In this document: positions 29,475 through 59,043 of the stretch, piece by piece
How positions within the stretch are numbered: the first letter of the stretch is position 1
Layout: each line of letters starts with the position of its first letter
From: Promethearchaeota archaeon
GTDB lineage: Archaea; Asgardarchaeota; Lokiarchaeia; Sigyniarchaeales; SOKP01
Direction: 5' to 3'
Assembly: GCA_019058445.1 (NCBI GenBank)
Contig: JAHPZA010000006.1
Location: 124,001 to 188,000 of the forward strand
Length of the DNA stretch: 64,000 bases
Position numbers and translations under genes: made by a program
The notes under the pieces: model-generated
Database searches by the model: none
The model's input: the letters and a program-made list of their open reading frames with translations, nothing else
What the model was told of the DNA's origin: nothing

Positions 29475-29640
29475 ACTAACCTTTTCTCACTTAAATTAAT
29501 AAAATTTTGTTATTATACTCTATGGTAAATATAAGTTTAAAGGTAAAAAAATTTTATAATTTTATATCAATAATAATTAAACATATAGAATTTCAGCTTT
29601 AATTAGAAATGATAAATTAAAAATAGATAATGTGAAAGAT

Positions 29641-31062
29641 ATGATTAGATTTAGTGATAAGCAATTAAAAATCCCTAAATTAATGAGGCCGGTATATCTT
29701 GTTACAGCAGGTATGTCAAAATTTGATCGAGCATTTCCAGAAACTCGAACTGAAGAGCTTTGCATAGACGCTTTAACCGCAGCTTCTGATTTTGTAGGTA
29801 TGACACCAGCTGAATTAAAAAAGTACATTCATACATGCTATTATGGTCATTTCGCAGATCATTTTGGTGATCAATTGCTCGGTGAAGCTGTAATCCATGA
29901 TCGACTGGGTTTAGATCCTTTAGGGAATATAGGTGTAAAAACTGGAGGTGCTACAGGAGGTTCAGCTATGTGGGAGGCTGTAAAAGCCGTAGCTTCTGGA
30001 TATAGTGACTGTGCGCTCGCTCTTGGTTGGGAAAGGATGGATGAAGTACCCACTGATGAAGGCAACCATCTTATTTCTTGTGCCGCAGATAAAGATTGGG
30101 AAACTCCCTTAGGACACATTTATACAGGATATTACGCAGTTATGGCACAACGATACTGGAAAGTTTTTGGTAAAGAACAAGATTCTTTTAGGAAAACAAT
30201 GGCGGAAATTGCCGTAAAAAATCGTGGCTACGCTCGAATGAACCCTCATGCCCATGGGCCAATGAAAATTACTGTAGAGGATGTCACTAACTCCCCTATA
30301 GTGGCTTATCCTCTTCGGGTTTTAGACTGTTGTTTAATGAGTGTGGGATCCGCATGTGGTGTGGTGTGTGATGAAAAAACGGCATATGAAATTACGGATA
30401 AACCTCTAAGAATATATATTGCTGCGGGAAGTCATACGTTAAGAGTAGCAGATCGACGGGATATGACAATACCCCTTTTACCAAACGAAACTCCGGGGCA
30501 GTATGACGACATAGGAAAGAAATTTCCAGGTGGTGATCGATATCCTGGTTTTTCTAGCTTTTTGGCCGCACGTGTAGCCGCATATTACGCATATCACATG
30601 TCAGGTGTAGTCGATCCTTCTGAAGATCTCGATGTTGTGGAGTTACATGATGCGTTTACGATTAGTGATATCCAAACCTACGAGGATATCGGAATTCGCC
30701 CTTATGGAGAGGGAAGAGACTATATTGAGTCAGGAGATGCATATGTAATAAATCCACTTACGAAGAAACCTGGAAAACTACCAAGTAATCCATGTGGAGG
30801 ATTAATTGGTTGCATGCACGCCGTAGGGGCAACAGGACTTATGCAGATTGCTGAAATAGGGTATCATATTTGGAATCGATGGGATGAGATTCATGAGCCA
30901 GAAGAAAAATGGAAAGCCTTCGGACGAGAAAAACCAAAAGATTGGACGAGCCTTCAAGTAAAGGGAGCTAAACGCGGTTTGGCAATAAGTCATGCGGGGG
31001 TAGGTTCCCATGTAACTTGTACAATTTTAATGGATCCAAATAAATTAATAAAGGAGGATTAA
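29641..31062 (+). CDS. Thiolase-superfamily (SCPx-like) protein, nucleophile Cys absent
   Basis: Thiolase fold with KTGGATGGSAMWEAVKAVASGYSDCALALGWERM, ELHDAFTISDIQTYEDIG, NPCGGLIGCMHAVGATGL; ATG 29641 preferred over GTG 29632. Confidence 0.88.
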   Translation: MIRFSDKQLKIPKLMRPVYLVTAGMSKFDRAFPETRTEELCIDALTAASDFVGMTPAELKKYIHTCYYGHFADHFGDQLLGEAVIHDRLGLDPLGNIGVKTGGATGGSAMWEAVKAVASGYSDCALALGWERMDEVPTDEGNHLISCAADKDWETPLGHIYTGYYAVMAQRYWKVFGKEQDSFRKTMAEIAVKNRGYARMNPHAHGPMKITVEDVTNSPIVAYPLRVLDCCLMSVGSACGVVCDEKTAYEITDKPLRIYIAAGSHTLRVADRRDMTIPLLPNETPGQYDDIGKKFPGGDRYPGFSSFLAARVAAYYAYHMSGVVDPSEDLDVVELHDAFTISDIQTYEDIGIRPYGEGRDYIESGDAYVINPLTKKPGKLPSNPCGGLIGCMHAVGATGLMQIAEIGYHIWNRWDEIHEPEEKWKAFGREKPKDWTSLQVKGAKRGLAISHAGVGSHVTCTILMDPNKLIKED

Positions 31063-31065
31063 AAA

Positions 31066-31668
31066 ATGCCTAAAACAAATGAGGAAAAAGGTTTTGTTGA
31101 TATAATTAACGGGAGATATAAACCCAATGGAAAATTTCACATAATTGAAGCGAATCAACCAATATTTAATAAAGATACTGGAAAATTGGCTGGAGTGACG
31201 AACCCTAGAGACATGACCTACATCCATTCGTATGGAGGAGAGGCAATTTTCTTTGAATCGCTTGGAAAAGGAAAACTTATGGCAACTCGATGTGACAACG
31301 ATAAGTGTGAAGCAAAGGGTTCTATATTTGAACCTTTTAGAATTTTTTGTCCAGATTGCTTAAGAAAAGCTACTGTAGTCGATATCACAGAAAAGGCTCA
31401 ACAAATGGCAAAAATTCATTCCTTCATAATAACTCATCGTTCAGGCGCCTTTAATACTCTTCCAAAACCGATTAAATTTATCAACGTAGAATTCGATGAG
31501 GAAGTAGTTACTATTTTGATGAGCGTATTGTCAGTTGGTGAGCCAGAAATTGGGAAAAGAGTTGTCCCGATCTTTCGAACTAAAGATCCGACATATACTA
31601 TTATGGATCTTATGTTTGTGGTAGAAGGAACACCTGAATCGGATTTACCAGAAGGATTTACTTATTAA
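31066..31668 (+). CDS. DUF35 OB-fold/zinc-ribbon thiolase partner
   Basis: CDNDKCEAKGSIFEPFRIFCPDC zinc ribbon; SD-like aggagg upstream; directly follows thiolase-fold gene. Confidence 0.83.
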   Translation: MPKTNEEKGFVDIINGRYKPNGKFHIIEANQPIFNKDTGKLAGVTNPRDMTYIHSYGGEAIFFESLGKGKLMATRCDNDKCEAKGSIFEPFRIFCPDCLRKATVVDITEKAQQMAKIHSFIITHRSGAFNTLPKPIKFINVEFDEEVVTILMSVLSVGEPEIGKRVVPIFRTKDPTYTIMDLMFVVEGTPESDLPEGFTY

Positions 31669-34113: not shown

Positions 34114-35253
34114 ATGAAAGTAGCAATTGTGGGAGTAGCCCAGACCAAATATGAGAGCAACAAAATCGATCAAACCTATATGGAGCTCACGTTTGAAGTT
34201 GTGAAGAAGCTTCACAATCAATTAGGAATAACAAACGATGACGTGGGTTCGGTAATCACTGGCTCTAACGATTTCACAGATGGTAGAACAATCGCTAATA
34301 TGGCAGTACAAGATGGTGTAGGATCCGTTCGCAAGTCGGAATCGAGAGTTTCGGGAGATGGAGCTTTTGCGTACGTTTACGCTGCTATGAGAGTTTTATC
34401 TCAGGAGTACGATACAGTTTTGGTAGTTTCGCATTCCAAGTGCTCCGAAGGGGATCAGTGCCTTATTAATAACTCAATTTTCGATCCCTTCTATCAGCGA
34501 CATTTGGGTTTGGACCAAATCTCTTCTGCTGGGTTGATGGCAAATATGTATATGAGTAAATATGGTATAACGGAAGAACAAGCGGCAAAGGTGGTAGTTA
34601 AAAACAGAAAAAATGCTTTTAACAATCCTTACGCTCATATACAGAAAGAGATAACTGTTGATGATGTTCTTAAATCGCCCATGTTAGCTTATCCATTAAA
34701 AGAATTAGATCTGCCTCCATATAGCGATGGTGCAGTAGCAATGCTCCTTGCTAATGAGGAAACCGCAAAAAAATTAACAGACACACCAGTATGGTTGAGG
34801 GGATACGCTAATTGTACTGACGCGTATTATCTAGGGAATAGAAACATGACGGATTTAATTGCATTAGAATTAGCAGCAAAGGAGGCCTACAAAATGGCGG
34901 GTATTAGCGATCCTATAAAAGATATAGATGTAGCTGAAGTGTCAGAAAATTTTAGTGCACACGAGCTTATGATTTACGAAGCCTTAGGTTTTTGCGGAAA
35001 GGGAGAAGGTGGAAAGTTTATTGATAGTGGAGAAACCCAAATGGGAGGAAAAATTCCCGTAAATCCTTCTGGAGGAGTATTATCAAGCAATGTGGCTATG
35101 GCAAATGGGTTAATTCGTGTAGCGGAGGTTGCTGAACAGTTAACGGGCAAAGCAGGAAAACGTCAAATACCTGATGCAAAAACAGGATTGGCATATGGGA
35201 TGAATGGAATATGTTCTCAAGGAAATTGCGTGTTAATTTTTGGAGGTGATTAA
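34114..35253 (+). CDS. Thiolase-superfamily protein, A-type (SGDGA) subunit, nucleophile and GHP His not conserved
   Basis: SRVSGDGAFAYVYAAMRVL at the nucleophile region, NPSGGVLSSNVAMANGL at the GHPxGxTG region. Confidence 0.85.
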   Translation: MKVAIVGVAQTKYESNKIDQTYMELTFEVVKKLHNQLGITNDDVGSVITGSNDFTDGRTIANMAVQDGVGSVRKSESRVSGDGAFAYVYAAMRVLSQEYDTVLVVSHSKCSEGDQCLINNSIFDPFYQRHLGLDQISSAGLMANMYMSKYGITEEQAAKVVVKNRKNAFNNPYAHIQKEITVDDVLKSPMLAYPLKELDLPPYSDGAVAMLLANEETAKKLTDTPVWLRGYANCTDAYYLGNRNMTDLIALELAAKEAYKMAGISDPIKDIDVAEVSENFSAHELMIYEALGFCGKGEGGKFIDSGETQMGGKIPVNPSGGVLSSNVAMANGLIRVAEVAEQLTGKAGKRQIPDAKTGLAYGMNGICSQGNCVLIFGGD

Positions 35254-35257
35254 AAAA

Positions 35258-36436
35258 ATGCCTAAACATGATGTAGCAATAGTAGGAATTGGTCAAACTA
35301 AATTTAGAAGTAAGAGAAGGGATGTCAATATCCCCGAAATGATTTATGAAGCTGTAAAAGCAGCTCTTGATGATGCAAATCTAGAAATCAAAGATATAGA
35401 CGCTCTATTAATTGGGAATATGGATCATTTTGAGGGAATAAACTTTAGCGAGCTGTGGACAGGTATCGATGCGTGCGGATTTTATCTCAAACCTGTGGTT
35501 AAAATAGCTACGGGAGGCACTACGGGTTCCTCATTAGGTATAAGTGGATATTATAACATTGCTTCAGGGATATATGATAAAGTATTGGTTGTAGGATGGG
35601 AAAAGCTTAATGAGGGTGGAGCAACAACAGGAATAATTACTGCTTTCGACCCAGTTTGGGAGCGACCATCTTTAGCAGGAGCTTTAGGTCCACTTGCGCT
35701 TATGGCGAACATATATGCATCAAAATACGGGATAGAGCGTTCAATGGAAGCTTCAGCTGATGTGGTTGTGAAAAATCGATCAAACGCTGCAAATAACGAA
35801 TTTGCTCATTTACAGATGCCTAATATTACGACTGATTTTGTAATGAGTTCACAGATGATTAGCTATCCATTACGCTTACACGATTGTTGCCCTCAAAGTG
35901 AAGGAGCTTGCGCAGTAATTTACGCAAACGAGAACGAAGCTAAGAAAATCACAGATAATCCTGCTTGGTTTAAAGGCGTTTCAACGGCACACTATTATAC
36001 CTTTGGATGCGATGATATTATGTATAATTTGCCTACGGCAACTATTGCTTCCAAGAAGATTTATAAAAAAGTAGGTATCAAGGATCCCATAAAAGATCTT
36101 GATGTTGCTGAAATTTACGAGCCTACTTCGTGGGCTGAGCTCGCTTGGACAGAGGCGTTGGGTTTTTGCGATTTTGGTAAGGGACATACCTTATTGGATG
36201 AAGGTATTAGTAAAATGGGTGGTGAAATGCCAGTAAATCCCTCAGGTGGCGTTTTAAGTACCAATCCAATTGGTGCGACTGCATTAGTTCGATTCGCAGA
36301 GGCAGCTATTCAAATTATGGGAAGAGGTGGAAAAAGGCAAGTCCCAGATGCTGAAGTTGCTATGGGTATGGGATTTGGTGGTAGTTTATGGACAGAATTA
36401 TGCATATTGGGCAAAGACCCAAAACCAGTGAGGTGA
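35258..36436 (+). CDS. Thiolase-superfamily protein, B-type (TGGTTGSS) subunit
   Basis: KIATGGTTGSSLGISGYYNIASGIYDKVLVVGWEKL; NPSGGVLSTNPIGATAL; ATG 35258 preferred over TTG 35240. Confidence 0.87.
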   Translation: MPKHDVAIVGIGQTKFRSKRRDVNIPEMIYEAVKAALDDANLEIKDIDALLIGNMDHFEGINFSELWTGIDACGFYLKPVVKIATGGTTGSSLGISGYYNIASGIYDKVLVVGWEKLNEGGATTGIITAFDPVWERPSLAGALGPLALMANIYASKYGIERSMEASADVVVKNRSNAANNEFAHLQMPNITTDFVMSSQMISYPLRLHDCCPQSEGACAVIYANENEAKKITDNPAWFKGVSTAHYYTFGCDDIMYNLPTATIASKKIYKKVGIKDPIKDLDVAEIYEPTSWAELAWTEALGFCDFGKGHTLLDEGISKMGGEMPVNPSGGVLSTNPIGATALVRFAEAAIQIMGRGGKRQVPDAEVAMGMGFGGSLWTELCILGKDPKPVR

Positions 36437-36443
36437 TTATAAA

Positions 36444-36956
36444 ATGGTAAGACAAAAAGGAGAATTTCAAATCAGATGGAAAACCGATCTTCCCTATAGA
36501 TGGGCAATCGGAAAACTTGCGGTTAAATATTTTGAAGAACTTAAAAAAAGGAAAATTATGGGGTCAAAATGTCCGAAATGTGGGAAGATGTATATGCCGC
36601 CAAGAGGGGTTTGTGCTGATTGTTTTGTGGAAATGACAGTAGATGATATGGTAGAACTTTCTCGAAAAGGTACGTTAATGGGGTTCACAGTAGTGAATTA
36701 TCCTTTTGTAGATCCCAATACTGGTGCGATGAGACCGTTCCCTTATGGATACGTAATTTGTCAGCTAGATGGAGCCGATACATATCTTATGCACTTTTGC
36801 GATGAAATTGACCATACCAAATTCAAAATCGGACAGCGTGTTGAAGCCGTTTTTTGCGACGAGCTACCTAAGGATCATGAAAGTTATCGCCCTGAGTTAA
36901 AAGGTGATATCTACGACATTCCATTTATTAGACTATTAAAAGATGAGGAGGTATAA
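36444..36956 (+). CDS. DUF35 OB-fold/zinc-ribbon protein
   Basis: GSKCPKCGKMYMPPRGVCADC; LDGADTYLMHF OB-fold segment. Confidence 0.9.
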   Translation: MVRQKGEFQIRWKTDLPYRWAIGKLAVKYFEELKKRKIMGSKCPKCGKMYMPPRGVCADCFVEMTVDDMVELSRKGTLMGFTVVNYPFVDPNTGAMRPFPYGYVICQLDGADTYLMHFCDEIDHTKFKIGQRVEAVFCDELPKDHESYRPELKGDIYDIPFIRLLKDEEV

Positions 36957-36969
36957 CGGAGGGATAAAA

Positions 36970-37413
36970 ATGAGTGATGATAAGAGAGTATTTGAGGGAA
37001 GAATCAAAGTACCATATAAGCATACTGCCGGAGCTTATGTAGAAAAGTTTTTAACCGAAATCGGCCAAAATCGCAAAATAATGGGTGTTAAGTGTCCAAA
37101 GTGCAAAAAAGTATTTGTTCCACCGAAAATGGTGTGCTTTGAGTGTTTTGAGAAGATGGAAGAGTGGGTAGAAGTCGGAAACCAAGGTACTCTTAAAGGT
37201 TTTACAGTTGTTACACATAAAACTGATGTTATGCCCTTAAAACCTCCTTTTGCCTATGGGATAATCAGACTCGATGGTGCTGATACTGATATCGTACATT
37301 TAATAAAGGAAAGTGATCCAAACAAGCTTAAAGCAGGTATGCGAGTTGAGGCTAGTTTTTATGCGAAACCAAGAAAAAGAATCCTAGATATAGAATATTT
37401 TAAACCAATCTAA
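36970..37413 (+). CDS. DUF35 OB-fold/zinc-ribbon protein
   Basis: GVKCPKCKKVFVPPKMVCFEC; IRLDGADTDIVHL; ATG 36970 preceded by ggaggg. Confidence 0.9.
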   Translation: MSDDKRVFEGRIKVPYKHTAGAYVEKFLTEIGQNRKIMGVKCPKCKKVFVPPKMVCFECFEKMEEWVEVGNQGTLKGFTVVTHKTDVMPLKPPFAYGIIRLDGADTDIVHLIKESDPNKLKAGMRVEASFYAKPRKRILDIEYFKPI

Positions 37414-40187: not shown

Positions 40188-42230
40188 TTATATACTATTA
40201 CCCATTTTATAACCTCGAGCAACAGCTTCCATTACCGTTTCTGGTTTACGAGCATCTCCGATTTTCTCTACTTTAATAGTACCTAGTTGCTTGATTTCTT
40301 TATAAAGAGCATCGTTCGGTTCGACCCCGGTAGCATAATAGATATAATCTATATCACTAATTGCGTTTTCTTTACCCGAAGAGTCTGAATAATTTACATA
40401 ATTTTCGCCGATTTCAGTGACTTTTACACTTGTAAGGAATTTCACACCTAAAGCATCGCATTTATCAAGAAGTACCCATTTCGTAGTCCTTCCTAACGCA
40501 GATCCTAATTTTGGTAACATTTCAAGAACGGTAACCTTATTCCTTCCCTTATGCATCATATCTAACGCAATTTGAGGCTCTAAGGCCTTATAGAATGTAA
40601 GAAAATCAAATGCTTCACGGCTTAATGTTCCATATTTTGCAATGTATATTGCTAATTCTATACCAGTGGCTCCGCCTCCTATAATAACATTGTTCTTACC
40701 AACTGGAGCATCACCGCTTAAAGCATCATTTGCCCAATATACATTTGCTCTGTCAATACCGGGAATAGGAGGTTTTATGGGATTTGAACCAGTGGCGACA
40801 AATGCAACGTCAGGATTGAATTCTTTTACTATATCAATAGTGACATTTTGTTGGAAATGTACATTGATGCCGTATTTCTGAATCCAATAGTTATAATTAT
40901 CTATCATACGTTTAAATTCGTTTCTTCCTGGTGGAATCCAGATTATGTTTAATAACCCGCCAATTTTATCATCCTTCTCAAAAATATGAACATCATGTCC
41001 TCTAATTGCCGCTATTCTCGCAGCCTCTAATCCTCCTGCTCCTGCTCCAATAATCATAACTTTTTTCTTTTCTTTCAATGGTTTCAGTTCAGTTCGGGCT
41101 TCATTTCCCGCTCGAGCATTCCTTAAACACGTGACAGGCATCATCCTGAATACCTGGTCAAAGCATCCTTGATTGCAGCCAATACAGTTCATTATATCTC
41201 TTAATTCACCCTTTTGAGCTTTCATTGGCAGATAAGGATCAGCAATTAACCCTCTTCCAATACAAATAGCATCAGCTTTTCCGGCCATTAAAACTTGTTC
41301 GGCGAGCTCAGGGTTGTTAATTCTATTGGAAGAAAATATAGGAATAGATACACGTTTATGAATATTTTCAGCTAGGTATGTATAACATCCTTCTGGAACA
41401 TCCATTGTTAATTGTGGTGTTTTTGTTTCATGCCAACCACCTGTTACGTTGAAATAATCTAAATATTTACCTAATTCTTCTGCAATAACTACTTTTTCCT
41501 TATATGTATTGCTGCCTGGAACAAAATCATCTCCAGAAATTCGATAGCCAAGAGGGATATCGTCTACTTTAGAACGCATTAATTCAATGGTTTCAATCGG
41601 GAATCTTAAACGATTTTCAAGATCGCCCCCATATTTATCAGTTCTCTTGTTAGTTTTTGGGGAACAAAACTGATCGGTTAAATAACCAGCATTTCCGCAA
41701 ATCTCTACTGCATCGAAGCCTGCTTTCTTAGCTCTAATTGTAGCGTCGGCAAAAGCCTCTTGTTCACGCTTTATATCTTCAAGACTCATTTCCTTAGGAG
41801 TGGTCTTACTAAAATTACTATAAACTGCAGAGGGGGCAATAGGTGTTCTGCCAATTATCTGTGGGAATGCGTTTAGGCCTCAATGGTAAATCCATTTCGA
41901 GGAAGCCCCGCCATGGTATAATTGGCAACAGATCTTTACATCATCTCGAGCATTGTGTACGGCTTCAGTTAATTTCTGTAAATCAGGAATAAATTTATCG
42001 TCATCAACTGCAATCATCGATGGTAAACCCTTTGCATAAACGTCTACATAACACCCTCCTACAATTAGCATTCCAGCACCTCCCTTAGCCCTTTCAACGT
42101 AAAAATCTATCAATTTGTCAGTGATAAACCCATTTTTTGCCAAGTTGAGATGCATCGCAGGCATTATAATACGATTAGACACATCCATATCCTTTATTTT
42201 AAAAGGAGTAAATAGTTTAAAGAACTTCAT
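40188..42230 (-). pseudogene. Old yellow enzyme / 2,4-dienoyl-CoA reductase (FadH-like) interrupted by one in-frame TGA (41880-41882)
   Basis: Two ORF-track pieces (41880..42230 and 40188..41789) are in one frame; sequence between them, GLNAFPQIIGRTPIAPSAVYSNFSKTTPKE, is protein-like. FMN TIM-barrel then FAD/NAD module (KVMIIGAGAGGLEAARIAAIRGHDV) and CIGCNQGCFDQVFRMMPVTCLRNA cluster motif. Confidence 0.72.
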
Positions 42231-55694: not shown

Positions 55695-56210
55695 CTATTT
55701 TTCTTGTTCCTTTTTGTTAAGTTCAACTGCCGGATCTTCAAGAGCATCATAATAATCGATATCAAACCACGAACCCGTCCTTTCTTTTGCCCATACAGCT
55801 TTTACTGGCATTCCAATATAGACAGAATGAAAATCAATATCTTTCGGCATATTATGAAGCCAAATTGTGTCGGCTCCATCTTGACGAACTGCAATAACGG
55901 GTAATGGTCTTTCACGATTTTTATCATCAGCCTCATAAGTGGCGGAGCCAGTAGCTATAGTTCCAGTCTCTGGCAAACGAACCCATTGATCTGGCATTAC
56001 TAAGCATCGTCCACATATTAATCTCGGGGGAAATGAGACTGTATTGCACGACCGGCATTTTAATCCTAAACAAACTCCATCTTTTAGCCCTTTAAGAAAG
56101 ACTTTTGTTCTCGACAAATTAAATTTATATTTATAATTCATTAAATACCAGTTTCCATGCAAGGTTCTTGTCTTTTTATATTGCTTTTTAATATAGTCTG
56201 GTAGTGGCAT
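55695..56210 (-). CDS. DUF35 OB-fold/zinc-ribbon protein
   Basis: GLKCRSCNTVSFPPRLICGRC; RQDGADTIWLHNM. Confidence 0.88.
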   Translation of the reverse strand: MPLPDYIKKQYKKTRTLHGNWYLMNYKYKFNLSRTKVFLKGLKDGVCLGLKCRSCNTVSFPPRLICGRCLVMPDQWVRLPETGTIATGSATYEADDKNRERPLPVIAVRQDGADTIWLHNMPKDIDFHSVYIGMPVKAVWAKERTGSWFDIDYYDALEDPAVELNKKEQEK

Positions 56211-56218
56211 TCTTTATT

Positions 56219-57463
56219 TCACCTCCATTTTCTCTGTGGTTCATCGGACATCACCACATGAGTTATTAAATTGATAGAACCGCCCCAACCATGTCCTAAA
56301 GCAGTGTGAACTGTTTTTGGTACTTGGTTGCCAGCTTTTCCCATAATTTGTAGAGCAGCTTCAGCTGGCCGTTCCATAGCAGAAGCTCCAATCGCATTTG
56401 TCGAATTGACGCCGCCAGAACAGTTCACAGGTAATTCTCCATTAAGCGCAGTAACTCCATTCCGATATGCTTCTGGAGCCTGATTTTCTTCAAAAAGCCC
56501 AATTCTTTCAACCCACATCAATTCTTGATTTGGGAATGGAGAATAAACTTCCGCATAATCAATTTCCTTATTGGGAAATGAAATACCTGCTTGTCCATAT
56601 GCCACCTCAGCTGATTTCATCGCTCCCAGTTGTTCGCACGGATCAGTTTGGCCTGCACCTGCACAATCTATCCCTATAATGGCCGATTCATTGCTGTAAC
56701 TCGCAACACCATTGATATAGACGGGAATGTCCGCTATTTGCTTCGCTTTTTCTTCAGTTGTAATTAACATCGCGCAAGCACCATCAGAGGCAGGACATAC
56801 CATTCCAAATCTCAGAGGAAAAGAGATATATGGTGTGTCGAGTACATCCTCTATGGTAATCGTAGGCATTTTTAAATGCGTCCACCAATTTTTTGCAGCA
56901 TTTCTTCTATTTTGGACAACAACGCGGGCTAGATCCTCTTCAGTTGCCCGACTACGCCTCATATAATTCATAGCTTGATAAGAAGCTACTCCAATTGCAG
57001 CTCCGGAACCCATATTTGATCTCATCCTCTCAATGGTATAGCCTAAATCAGAAAAAATAGAAAATTCTCCTAATGCTACAGATGCTAAACCTACTGTGGT
57101 ATCCCCACATGATTGCTGCTCGAAACCGATGCATAAAACCATGTCGTATAATCCTGAGGCTACACTGTAATAACCAGCTATTGTAACAGAACCTCCTGTA
57201 GTTCCGCCTGTGGTAACCCGGAGCAACGGTTTATTTTTAGAGGCCATGTGATCTCCCATCCATAATTCTGGCATATTCGCCCCTTCAAATGCGGGCATAT
57301 TACCATTGACAACCGCATCTATGTCCTTCCAATCGATATTTGCTTTTGTAATACAATCCTCAACCGCTTCATTGACCAATTCTGCCATGTTCACATCAGA
57401 ACGTTTAGATGCGTGTTCACAAAACCCACAGCTTATTATTGCTGGTTGTACTTTATGTGCCAT
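56219..57463 (-). CDS. Thiolase-superfamily protein, B-type (TGGTTGGS) subunit
   Basis: LRVTTGGTTGGSVTIAGYYSVASGLYDMVLCIGFEQQ; NCSGGVNSTNAIGASAM. Confidence 0.87.
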   Translation of the reverse strand: MAHKVQPAIISCGFCEHASKRSDVNMAELVNEAVEDCITKANIDWKDIDAVVNGNMPAFEGANMPELWMGDHMASKNKPLLRVTTGGTTGGSVTIAGYYSVASGLYDMVLCIGFEQQSCGDTTVGLASVALGEFSIFSDLGYTIERMRSNMGSGAAIGVASYQAMNYMRRSRATEEDLARVVVQNRRNAAKNWWTHLKMPTITIEDVLDTPYISFPLRFGMVCPASDGACAMLITTEEKAKQIADIPVYINGVASYSNESAIIGIDCAGAGQTDPCEQLGAMKSAEVAYGQAGISFPNKEIDYAEVYSPFPNQELMWVERIGLFEENQAPEAYRNGVTALNGELPVNCSGGVNSTNAIGASAMERPAEAALQIMGKAGNQVPKTVHTALGHGWGGSINLITHVVMSDEPQRKWR

Positions 57464-57466
57464 TTT

Positions 57467-58606
57467 TTAACCACCTCCCTCCAATACAAATAATATACTA
57501 TTTTGAGCACAAAAACCCACCTGTCCAGAAGCAATTGCTTTCTTGGCACCGGAAACTTGATACTCATCTGCTTCCCCTCGAAGTTGCTTCGCAGCTTCTA
57601 CTATTCTTGTCAGTCCACAAGCACAAGGAGTAAATGCACTCATCGCCCCTCCAGAAGGATTTAATGCTGATCCTGAATCAAGCAACGTCGCTCCTTTTCC
57701 ATTTTCAGCCAATTTTGCTGCCTCTGCTAATATTAATTCTTCACACGATGTATGTCCAAAGAGTTCTGCTACATCAATTTCAGATTTAGGATCACTTATT
57801 CCAGCCATTTTATACGCTTTTTCGGCCGCTTTTTCCATTGAAACGCTTTTGCTTAAATCTCTATCACCTAAATAATAGGTCTCCTGACATTGTCCCATCC
57901 CGGTGATCCACACGGGGGTATCCGTAATTTTTAAACTTTGTCTCTCAGGAGCTAAAATCATCGCAGTTGCCCCATCACATGGGATAGGATACATCAATTC
58001 CCTTAAGGGACTGCTTAAAACCTCAGAATTTAACACATCTTGCACAGAGATATCCGATTTTTTCACATCTGGTAAAGCTAAAGGATTTTTCGCAGAATTC
58101 TTATAACCTTGTACTGCAACCTTCGCAATTTCTTCTTCGCTCACGCCAAATGCTTTCATATAAGCCCTCATTTGCATTCCTCCAGCAGTATATGAGTTTA
58201 TCAAACTTATGGTTCTATCAAAAGTAGGATCTAATTCCAAGATTCTCACTGGCTCATATAAATAGCATGATGGCATGCTAAATCCATATATCATCGCTAA
58301 TTTATGGTTACCTGATAATATTCTATACTGCCCGTAAGCTGCGGCATGCGCTCCATCCATTTCGACTTTAGTCTCGTCCTTCATATAAGCCCCCCCTGCT
58401 TCTACTTTAAAGCAGTTCGAAATAGTTTTTCCATCATAGTAATCGTTCGTGCACGTTACTACAGTGGTAATATCTTTTCTTTTTAAACCAGCAGAATCCA
58501 AGGCTCCCCTCACTGCAGAGTAAATGGCTTCATAGGGACTCATCATCATATCCAGTTCAGGTTTTAGTTGACAATACCCAACAATTCCTACTCGTTCCAT
58601 CTTCAT
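57467..58606 (-). CDS. Thiolase-superfamily protein, A-type (EMDGA) subunit
   Basis: ETKVEMDGAHAAAYGQYRILSGNHKLAMIYG; LNPSGGAMSAFTPCACGL. Confidence 0.85.
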   Translation of the reverse strand: MKMERVGIVGYCQLKPELDMMMSPYEAIYSAVRGALDSAGLKRKDITTVVTCTNDYYDGKTISNCFKVEAGGAYMKDETKVEMDGAHAAAYGQYRILSGNHKLAMIYGFSMPSCYLYEPVRILELDPTFDRTISLINSYTAGGMQMRAYMKAFGVSEEEIAKVAVQGYKNSAKNPLALPDVKKSDISVQDVLNSEVLSSPLRELMYPIPCDGATAMILAPERQSLKITDTPVWITGMGQCQETYYLGDRDLSKSVSMEKAAEKAYKMAGISDPKSEIDVAELFGHTSCEELILAEAAKLAENGKGATLLDSGSALNPSGGAMSAFTPCACGLTRIVEAAKQLRGEADEYQVSGAKKAIASGQVGFCAQNSILFVLEGGG

Positions 58607-59043
58607 CCACCTCCCACCGGTTCAAAACCCGCAATATCGTTGGGATGACCTTTAACATTTTTCGCCCATACAACTTTCACCTTCATCCCTTCTTTTAGAG
58701 AATCTGGACTTATGTTTATGATCGGCGCTATTATGCCTGTATCAGCTCCATCAATTTGAATCAATCCCACCATAATGGGTTCCTTTGCCTTTCTTGCTCT
58801 ACGCTCTGTAACATTATAATTAGATACTGTGAAATTTTTTAGTACTCCATTTTCAGGTAATTCCACGAATTCCTCAGCCTTAGCAAAACAGTCACCACAT
58901 CGATTTCTTGGTGGCAAAAACACACGCTGGCACTTGGAACATTTGCTGCCTATAAATTGTTTGTTTTGCAAACCGTCATAGAATTTATCCATTACAATTC
59001 CTACCCAAAAATCAAACTCAGCACGCACCATGCCTCGTTTCAC
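58603..59043 (-). CDS. DUF35 OB-fold/zinc-ribbon protein
   Basis: GSKCSKCQRVFLPPRNRCGDC; IQIDGADTGIIAP; overlaps the next gene by 4 bp. Confidence 0.9.
   Translation of the reverse strand: MKRGMVRAEFDFWVGIVMDKFYDGLQNKQFIGSKCSKCQRVFLPPRNRCGDCFAKAEEFVELPENGVLKNFTVSNYNVTERRARKAKEPIMVGLIQIDGADTGIIAPIINISPDSLKEGMKVKVVWAKNVKGHPNDIAGFEPVGGG

Follow-up and report, generated by a model that had tools for sequence, protein, structure and literature searches.

The genome of a lokiarchaeon (Promethearchaeota archaeon, Sigyniarchaeales; GenBank assembly GCA_019058445.1) and those of its relatives very probably contain bulge-helix-bulge (BHB) introns of only 29 to 32 nucleotides (nt) in protein-coding genes. 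The stretch of DNA analyzed, here called the window, comprises 64,000 nt of contig JAHPZA010000006.1 (positions 124,001 to 188,000), which is contig C6 of the genome labeled G000 (4.6 Mb, 92.6% complete); G and L numbers denote genomes and loci, and the relatives are represented by metagenome-assembled genomes from archaea not in culture. As judged from sequence comparison, up to four such introns would occur per gene, in an OYE/BaiCD-like gene, in orthologues of the B-type thiolase-fold gene B1, in an SCP2-like thiolase gene and in the active-site motif of RtcB; the splicing endonuclease and RtcB would excise them and join the exons, and they appear to spread laterally together with co-converted exon flanks. 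B1 belongs to a cassette of two thiolase-fold and two DUF35 genes, which by itself is another Ltp3-Ltp4-like case and matters less than the introns. To our knowledge, archaeal mRNA splicing is known essentially only from crenarchaeal cbf5, and introns in archaeal protein genes are very rare.

Six of 30 B1 orthologues (L089, L108, L109, L112, L114, and L115) carry exactly 30 nt, with stop codons, between codons 54 and 55. The insert folds as a hairpin with compensatory changes, and its end pairs with the last exon bases; in these six sequences only standard pairs are formed (100%, versus 31 to 44% in slid controls), and the Gly codon that contributes the exon strand of the helix reads GGT in all six, compared with 2 of 22 uninterrupted genes. 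The 30-nt insertion of the OYE/BaiCD-like gene of the window contains an in-frame TGA, and its removal yields GGAYAFPQIIG, as in relatives; it was found in no other orthologue among 86 genomes searched (68 with a match, one of them with an unrelated stop). The SCP2-like thiolase gene (Tend) lies across the right end of the window (G000:C6:187949-189276; L031 4949-6276), beside DUF35 and SCP2 genes. It is interrupted by insertions of 29 to 32 nt at seven positions in ten genomes (L031, L282 to L288, L290, and L294); G000 has two of them and relatives as many as four, and G028 possesses a second, uninterrupted copy. When the window and neighboring Asgard loci were scanned by homology, the interrupting insertions within genes measured 29 or 30 nt, and two other matches, of 15 and 36 nt, lay at gene ends. 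One insertion, of 62 nt near residue 147 of Tend in G006 (L289), fits no single BHB intron.

For each stop-bearing insertion, the positions at which splicing would yield the orthologous protein were located and then checked for a strict BHB, defined as a 4-bp central helix between the ends of exon 1 and the intron, two 3-nt bulges and cuts between bulge nucleotides 2 and 3. All 27 insertions, at nine sites, fitted this rule, compared with 4.0 expected from shuffled introns (significance approximately 3e-8 over nine sites, with one insertion counted per site). As a further control, a naturally occurring in-frame indel of 18 nt in the same gene fitted in 0 of 11 cases. The rtcB gene of G012 (L300) provided an out-of-sample case: a 29-nt insertion within the DINCGVR motif fits the rule and has a 9-bp inner stem, so that all 28 insertions, now at 10 sites, conform, with the orthologous protein restored on removal. 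The insertions look like spliced BHB introns. Searching for BHB introns de novo by structure was unspecific (287 matches versus 295 in the control), so that only comparison of orthologues is effective in finding them.

Of the predicted processing machinery, splicing endonuclease (PF01974) was detected in all seven genomes searched, with two paralogues in five of them, and RtcB in seven of eight; in Crenarchaeota, hetero-oligomeric splicing endonucleases accompany mRNA introns (PMC2738675). G000 carries insertions, yet just one of the two endonuclease paralogues was found in this incomplete genome. The intron in rtcB would lie in the active-site motif of the very ligase needed to join BHB exons.

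Several other explanations of the insertions were considered and rejected. Translational bypassing of the B1 insertion is contradicted by take-off and landing codons that mismatch in frame and by the specificity of exon/intron pairing. Restart at the ATG following the B1 insertion could in principle occur, but purifying selection acts equally on the 54 codons upstream; at other sites there is either no ATG or, with 29 nt inserted, a frameshift. Sequencing error and pseudogene formation conflict with the occurrence of the same lengths in independent metagenome-assembled genomes, with the low ratio of nonsynonymous to synonymous substitution in interrupted B1 genes (0.01 to 0.10) and with the lack of any comparable internal insertion in GlyRS. 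A multicopy element was also discounted, as a search for the exact pattern of the intron returned the six B1 genes alone, with no match in the viral contigs searched.

Intron presence requires six changes on the B1 tree. Of the near twins G074 and G079, only G074 bears the intron, and 7 of the 21 differences between them are concentrated between -31 and +20 relative to the site (p = 2.4e-5, binomial). Four of these seven positions set G074 apart from G079, G082, and G078, which agree with one another; at the majority of the seven, G074 shares the state of the intron-bearing G028. In addition, G074 is identical to G018 from -6 to +287 around the intron, with approximately 17% difference beyond. 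These patterns point to recent intron gain by localized recombination.

The closest parallel is provided by the pre-mRNA introns of crenarchaeal cbf5, which are short (down to 36 bp), excised at BHB motifs and patchily distributed (PMC2738675). The insertions described here likewise resemble short BHB introns of patchy distribution in protein-coding genes but differ from those of cbf5 in being only 29 to 32 nt long, in occurring in Lokiarchaeia, in at least four genes and with up to four per gene, and in showing signs of recent lateral gain. No report of BHB introns in Asgard mRNA was found in the literature, of which preprints and most subscription papers were outside coverage.

The cassette containing B1 occupies positions 34114 to 37413 of the window and consists of four consecutive, codirectional genes (Table 1): an A-type thiolase (A1), a B-type thiolase (B1), and two DUF35 genes (D1a and D1b). 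The coordinates and Pfam matches agree with the original prediction on this order. Thiolase_N and Thiolase_C_1 exceed their cutoffs in both A1 and B1, and both DUF35 proteins are of the ChsH2 type, with the PF12172 zinc ribbon and PF01796 OB fold above cutoff (37.7 and 43.5 bits in D1a; 31.2 and 51.6 bits in D1b). The Shine-Dalgarno-like GGAGG sites noted earlier are present ahead of B1 and D1b, and D1a has GAGGTGA. B1 has an alternative TTG start at 35240, and the start of D1b in the open reading frame list (36943) overlaps D1a; the ATG codons at 35258 and 36970, respectively, should be preferred. In B1 genes without an adjacent A1 (L065 in G018 and L079 in G001), ACG and ATT stand in place of the normal start, although these genes have a Shine-Dalgarno-like site.

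The cassette is not confined to Asgard archaea but is found in many, mostly anaerobic, genomes. Orthologues of A1 with 76 to 85% identity occur in approximately 20 of 36 relatives in the family, with B nearly always directly next, followed by D1a and D1b. A profile scan of the genome collection gave at least 599 stretches, 593 of them confirmed, and the locus counts that follow cover the best 80 of these, from Lokiarchaeota, Jordarchaeia, Bathyarchaeota, Deltaproteobacteria, Chloroflexi, Spirochaetes, Blastocatellia, Actinomycetota, and others. Where there is enough downstream sequence (68 loci), the gene directly after A is B in 66 (64 scored automatically, plus L154 and L185, in which open reading frame calls overlap). 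The layout recurs in the approximately 20 relatives and in most of these loci, far beyond chance.

An obligate partnership of A and B had been proposed and is well supported at the genomic level by this adjacency, by a correlation between A and B distances of r=0.89 (approximately 0.52 for each against the neighboring acyl-CoA dehydrogenase, a control of 18 loci), and by a tree in which A-types and B-types split from single-gene thiolases with 100/100 support. Loci in which the two genes never adjoin, named beforehand as counterevidence, were not the pattern observed across relatives or the best 80 loci. A and B therefore very likely work together. The presence of two DUF35 genes, by contrast, had been regarded as unusual and is instead the rule: of the 49 loci that extend far enough on either side, 40 have exactly two. 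They form two positional classes (the tree needs 4 label changes, versus 37 with shuffled labels), of which the first, or D1a, class always adjoins B, and in genus g6 (L056, L057, and L059) both are fused into a single protein of 319 to 332 residues with two OB-fold and two zinc-ribbon matches.

The active-site loops SGDGA (A1) and TGGTTGSS (B1) had been quoted correctly, but it had been overlooked that neither contains the nucleophilic cysteine. A1 has Ser277 and Asn326 in the HDxF and GHP histidine columns, while B1 has Gly87, Tyr287, and Asn336 in the Cys, HDxF His, and GHP His columns. Among B-types, Gly at the Cys column and Tyr at the HDxF column are invariant (66 of 66 each), and Asn replaces the GHP histidine in 65 of 66. 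In A-types the Cys column holds Gly, Ser, or Ala (79 of 79) and Tyr is found at the HDxF column in 32 of 79. The canonical SCP2-type thiolase set (nucleophilic Cys with HDxF and GHP histidines) is thus carried by neither type. The combination of Tyr and Gly typical of Ltp2/Sal-type retro-aldolases is present in every B-type sequence, whereas the A-type does not conserve the tyrosine and has no conserved catalytic set. Thiolase function is doubtful, since the cysteine is missing in both subunits. AlphaFold2 monomers are predicted to be thiolase folds (predicted local distance difference test scores of 83.6 for B1 and 88.8 for A1), and the structures nearest to them are the thiolase of archaeal thiolase/HMG-CoA synthase, SCP2 thiolases, ST0096, and BbsB; no solved A/B heteromer was seen among the structure matches listed.

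In the steroid retro-aldolases TcLtp2 and CtSal, Tyr294 (YDHF) and Tyr302 (YDCY), respectively, act as the catalytic base, and Gly occupies the cysteine position (PMC12329534). Ltp2-ChsH2 and CtSal-Shy (PDB 6ok1 and 9myr), in which ChsH2 and Shy are the DUF35 proteins, share with B the combination of thiolase fold and DUF35, Tyr for the HDxF histidine, and Gly for Cys (PMC12329534) but differ from the cassette in that a single thiolase-like subunit makes the central dimer; their YDHF and YDCY motifs are replaced by YxPx in the B-type. More similar in organization is Ltp3-Ltp4 (Rhodococcus rhodochrous ltp3/ltp4; Rv3521-Rv3523 type), with adjacent unlike thiolase-fold genes and two DUF35 domains. 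This layout was found in the window, in relatives, and among the best 80 loci, and Cupriavidus plasmids likewise bear adjacent A and B genes. On actinobacterial plasmids, a tandem-DUF35 gene is followed by an A-like (PRK07937) and then a B-like (PRK08313) gene, which we take to be Ltp4 and Ltp3, as the gene order also matches. The same order is found in Rv3521-Rv3522(ltp4)-Rv3523(ltp3) of the KstR cholesterol regulon (PMC1995591, PMC6429209), and a review that cites Wilbrink 2012 on this point presents Ltp3-Ltp4 as a heteromeric aldol-lyase for sterol side chains branched at C24 (PMC6678751). A1 and B1 differ from these actinobacterial proteins in having only approximately 31 to 40% identity with them, separate DUF35 genes, and a context that is not sterol specific. 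In the tree, Asgard, Cupriavidus, and actinobacterial A-types group at 82/95 and the corresponding B-types at only 66/34. BbsAB benzoylsuccinyl-CoA thiolase (PDB 7pxp) also joins a thiolase-fold and a DUF35 subunit but has one gene for each, and the BbsB scores of A1 and B1 (130 and 117 bits, respectively) fall below the cutoff of 750.

From residues, gene context, and precedent we infer, with moderate confidence, that the cassette encodes one heteromeric Ltp3-Ltp4-like acyl-CoA lyase in which B is catalytic and A is a noncatalytic partner. A1 and B1 would derive from an old duplication within the thiolase superfamily, have been coinherited ever since, and pair as an A/B heterodimer, each subunit having one dedicated DUF35 protein as scaffold and pocket wall. 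The latter roles are those of DUF35 in solved complexes (PMC12329534, PMC6392133); for the earlier proposal that each DUF35 presents the CoA substrate, no evidence was found. On its residues, B is probably the catalytic subunit and not a cysteine thiolase: having lost the cysteine (Gly87) and the HDxF histidine, B1 would act through Tyr287, which lies at the catalytic-base position of the steroid retro-aldolases. A1, inert, would most likely give shape to the dimer and to the pocket for CoA or substrate. By analogy, the chances are about even that the reaction is of the aldol type; its most likely form would be C-C cleavage of a 3-hydroxyacyl-CoA, or the reverse addition, as proposed for Ltp3-Ltp4, with the beta-hydroxyacyl-CoA supplied by the products of neighboring ligase, dehydrogenase, and hydratase genes.

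Some observations argue against this lyase. NCBIfam cutoffs are not reached (B1, 367 of 514 bits for PRK08313; A1, 206 of 419 bits for PRK07937), the joint B-type group has weak tree support (66/34), A and B sit on separate contigs in G018, and the structure predictions are of monomers. Two residues after the Tyr, where Ltp2/Sal place His or Cys, 65 of 66 B-types have Pro; because this is the second catalytic residue, the mechanism of B cannot be identical to that of Ltp2/Sal. Furthermore, an assembly of A2, B2, and DUF35 is possible, since the two fold-mates within PhlABC, and those within archaeal thiolase/HMG-CoA synthase, form homodimers joined by DUF35 (PMC6392133). A1 and B1 might similarly each be homodimeric and be linked by the two DUF35 proteins into a larger complex with two different, sequential active sites, as in Phl(A2C2)2B4 and the archaeal complex (PMC6392133), with each DUF35 class binding one dimer. 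This arrangement is rather unlikely: like the cassette, those systems join two different thiolase-superfamily proteins through DUF35, but their partners are distant relatives (in PhlABC, homodimers of each; PMC6392133), while A and B are close, codiverging paralogues, and a second active site is improbable because no catalytic set is conserved in the A-type.

A real thiolase or Claisen-type synthase working without the usual cysteine, e.g., by direct acyl transfer between CoA thioesters, would agree with the NCBIfam and Pfam labels of A1 and B1 and with the beta-oxidation genes near the cassette. It is improbable, as the cysteine and both the HDxF and GHP histidines are lost in B and, for CtSal, whose cysteine position is occupied by Gly, thiolysis was judged impossible by the authors (PMC12329534). 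The pair could also be a biosynthetic acyltransferase or an acyl-CoA-binding protein instead of a catabolic lyase, given that fold and DUF35 are common to PhlC-like acyltransferases and that the A-like model is named a lipid-transfer protein. We consider this very improbable in view of the catabolic context (among the 80 loci, acyl-CoA dehydrogenase near 27, hydratase near 18, and ligase near 17) and the invariant Tyr of B, which suggests catalysis.

Table 1. Positions of the cassette genes, the sites preceding them, and the proposed intron in the window.
Feature	Position	Strand	Evidence
A1, A-type thiolase-fold subunit, 379 amino acids	34114-35253	+	reading frame, Pfam, residue columns
Shine-Dalgarno-like GGAGG of B1, within final codons of A1	35242-35246	+	read directly
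B1, B-type thiolase-fold subunit, 392 amino acids from its ATG	35258-36436	+	reading frame, Pfam, residue columns
GAGGTGA preceding D1a	36430-36436	+	read directly
D1a, DUF35 protein, 170 amino acids, first/down class	36444-36956	+	Pfam, position class
Shine-Dalgarno-like GGAGG of D1b	36958-36962	+	read directly
D1b, DUF35 protein, 147 amino acids from its ATG, last/up class	36970-37413	+	Pfam, position class
OYE/BaiCD-like gene	42230-40188	-	
OYE/BaiCD-like gene, exon 1	42230-41903	-	
OYE/BaiCD-like gene, proposed 30-nt BHB intron	41873-41902	-	
OYE/BaiCD-like gene, exon 2	41872-40188	-	
Second A/B cassette, one DUF35 gene per side	55695-59043	-	
D2a (second cassette)	58603-59043	-	
A2 (second cassette)	57467-58606	-	
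B2 (second cassette)	56219-57463	-	
D2b (second cassette)	55695-56210	-	

The second cassette of the window (D2a-A2-B2-D2b) is retained in many relatives, a further cassette of the A2/B2 type is located on contig C9 of G000, and a third A/B type is present in relatives (L058, L060, and L070). The first cassette lies within a large catabolic island (28140 to 55544) that includes genes for acyl-CoA dehydrogenase, two BKACE proteins, OYE, enoyl-CoA hydratases, AOR, Fe-ADH, acyl-CoA ligase, and a pair formed by a CrtI-like FAD oxidoreductase and a ferredoxin-type reductase, in an order that is reshuffled among relatives. The island also contains a single thiolase with its partner gene (29632 to 31668). 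The thiolase (476 amino acids) is PRK06365-like, scoring 675.9 of 695 bits; Gly fills its Cys column, but HDAF is retained. The partner (31066 to 31668) is DUF35-like by eye, with no Pfam model match.

Through the cassette, the actinobacterial pair Ltp3-Ltp4, which is known genetically but structurally uncharacterized, becomes a module of many mostly anaerobic genomes, for which a clear division of labor can be proposed: a catalytic B, an inert A, and two dedicated DUF35 proteins. If the introns are real, current annotations split or truncate Asgard genes, and BHB mini-introns can be acquired recently. Archaea close to eukaryotes would then already live with multi-intron protein genes, processed by a nonspliceosomal route.

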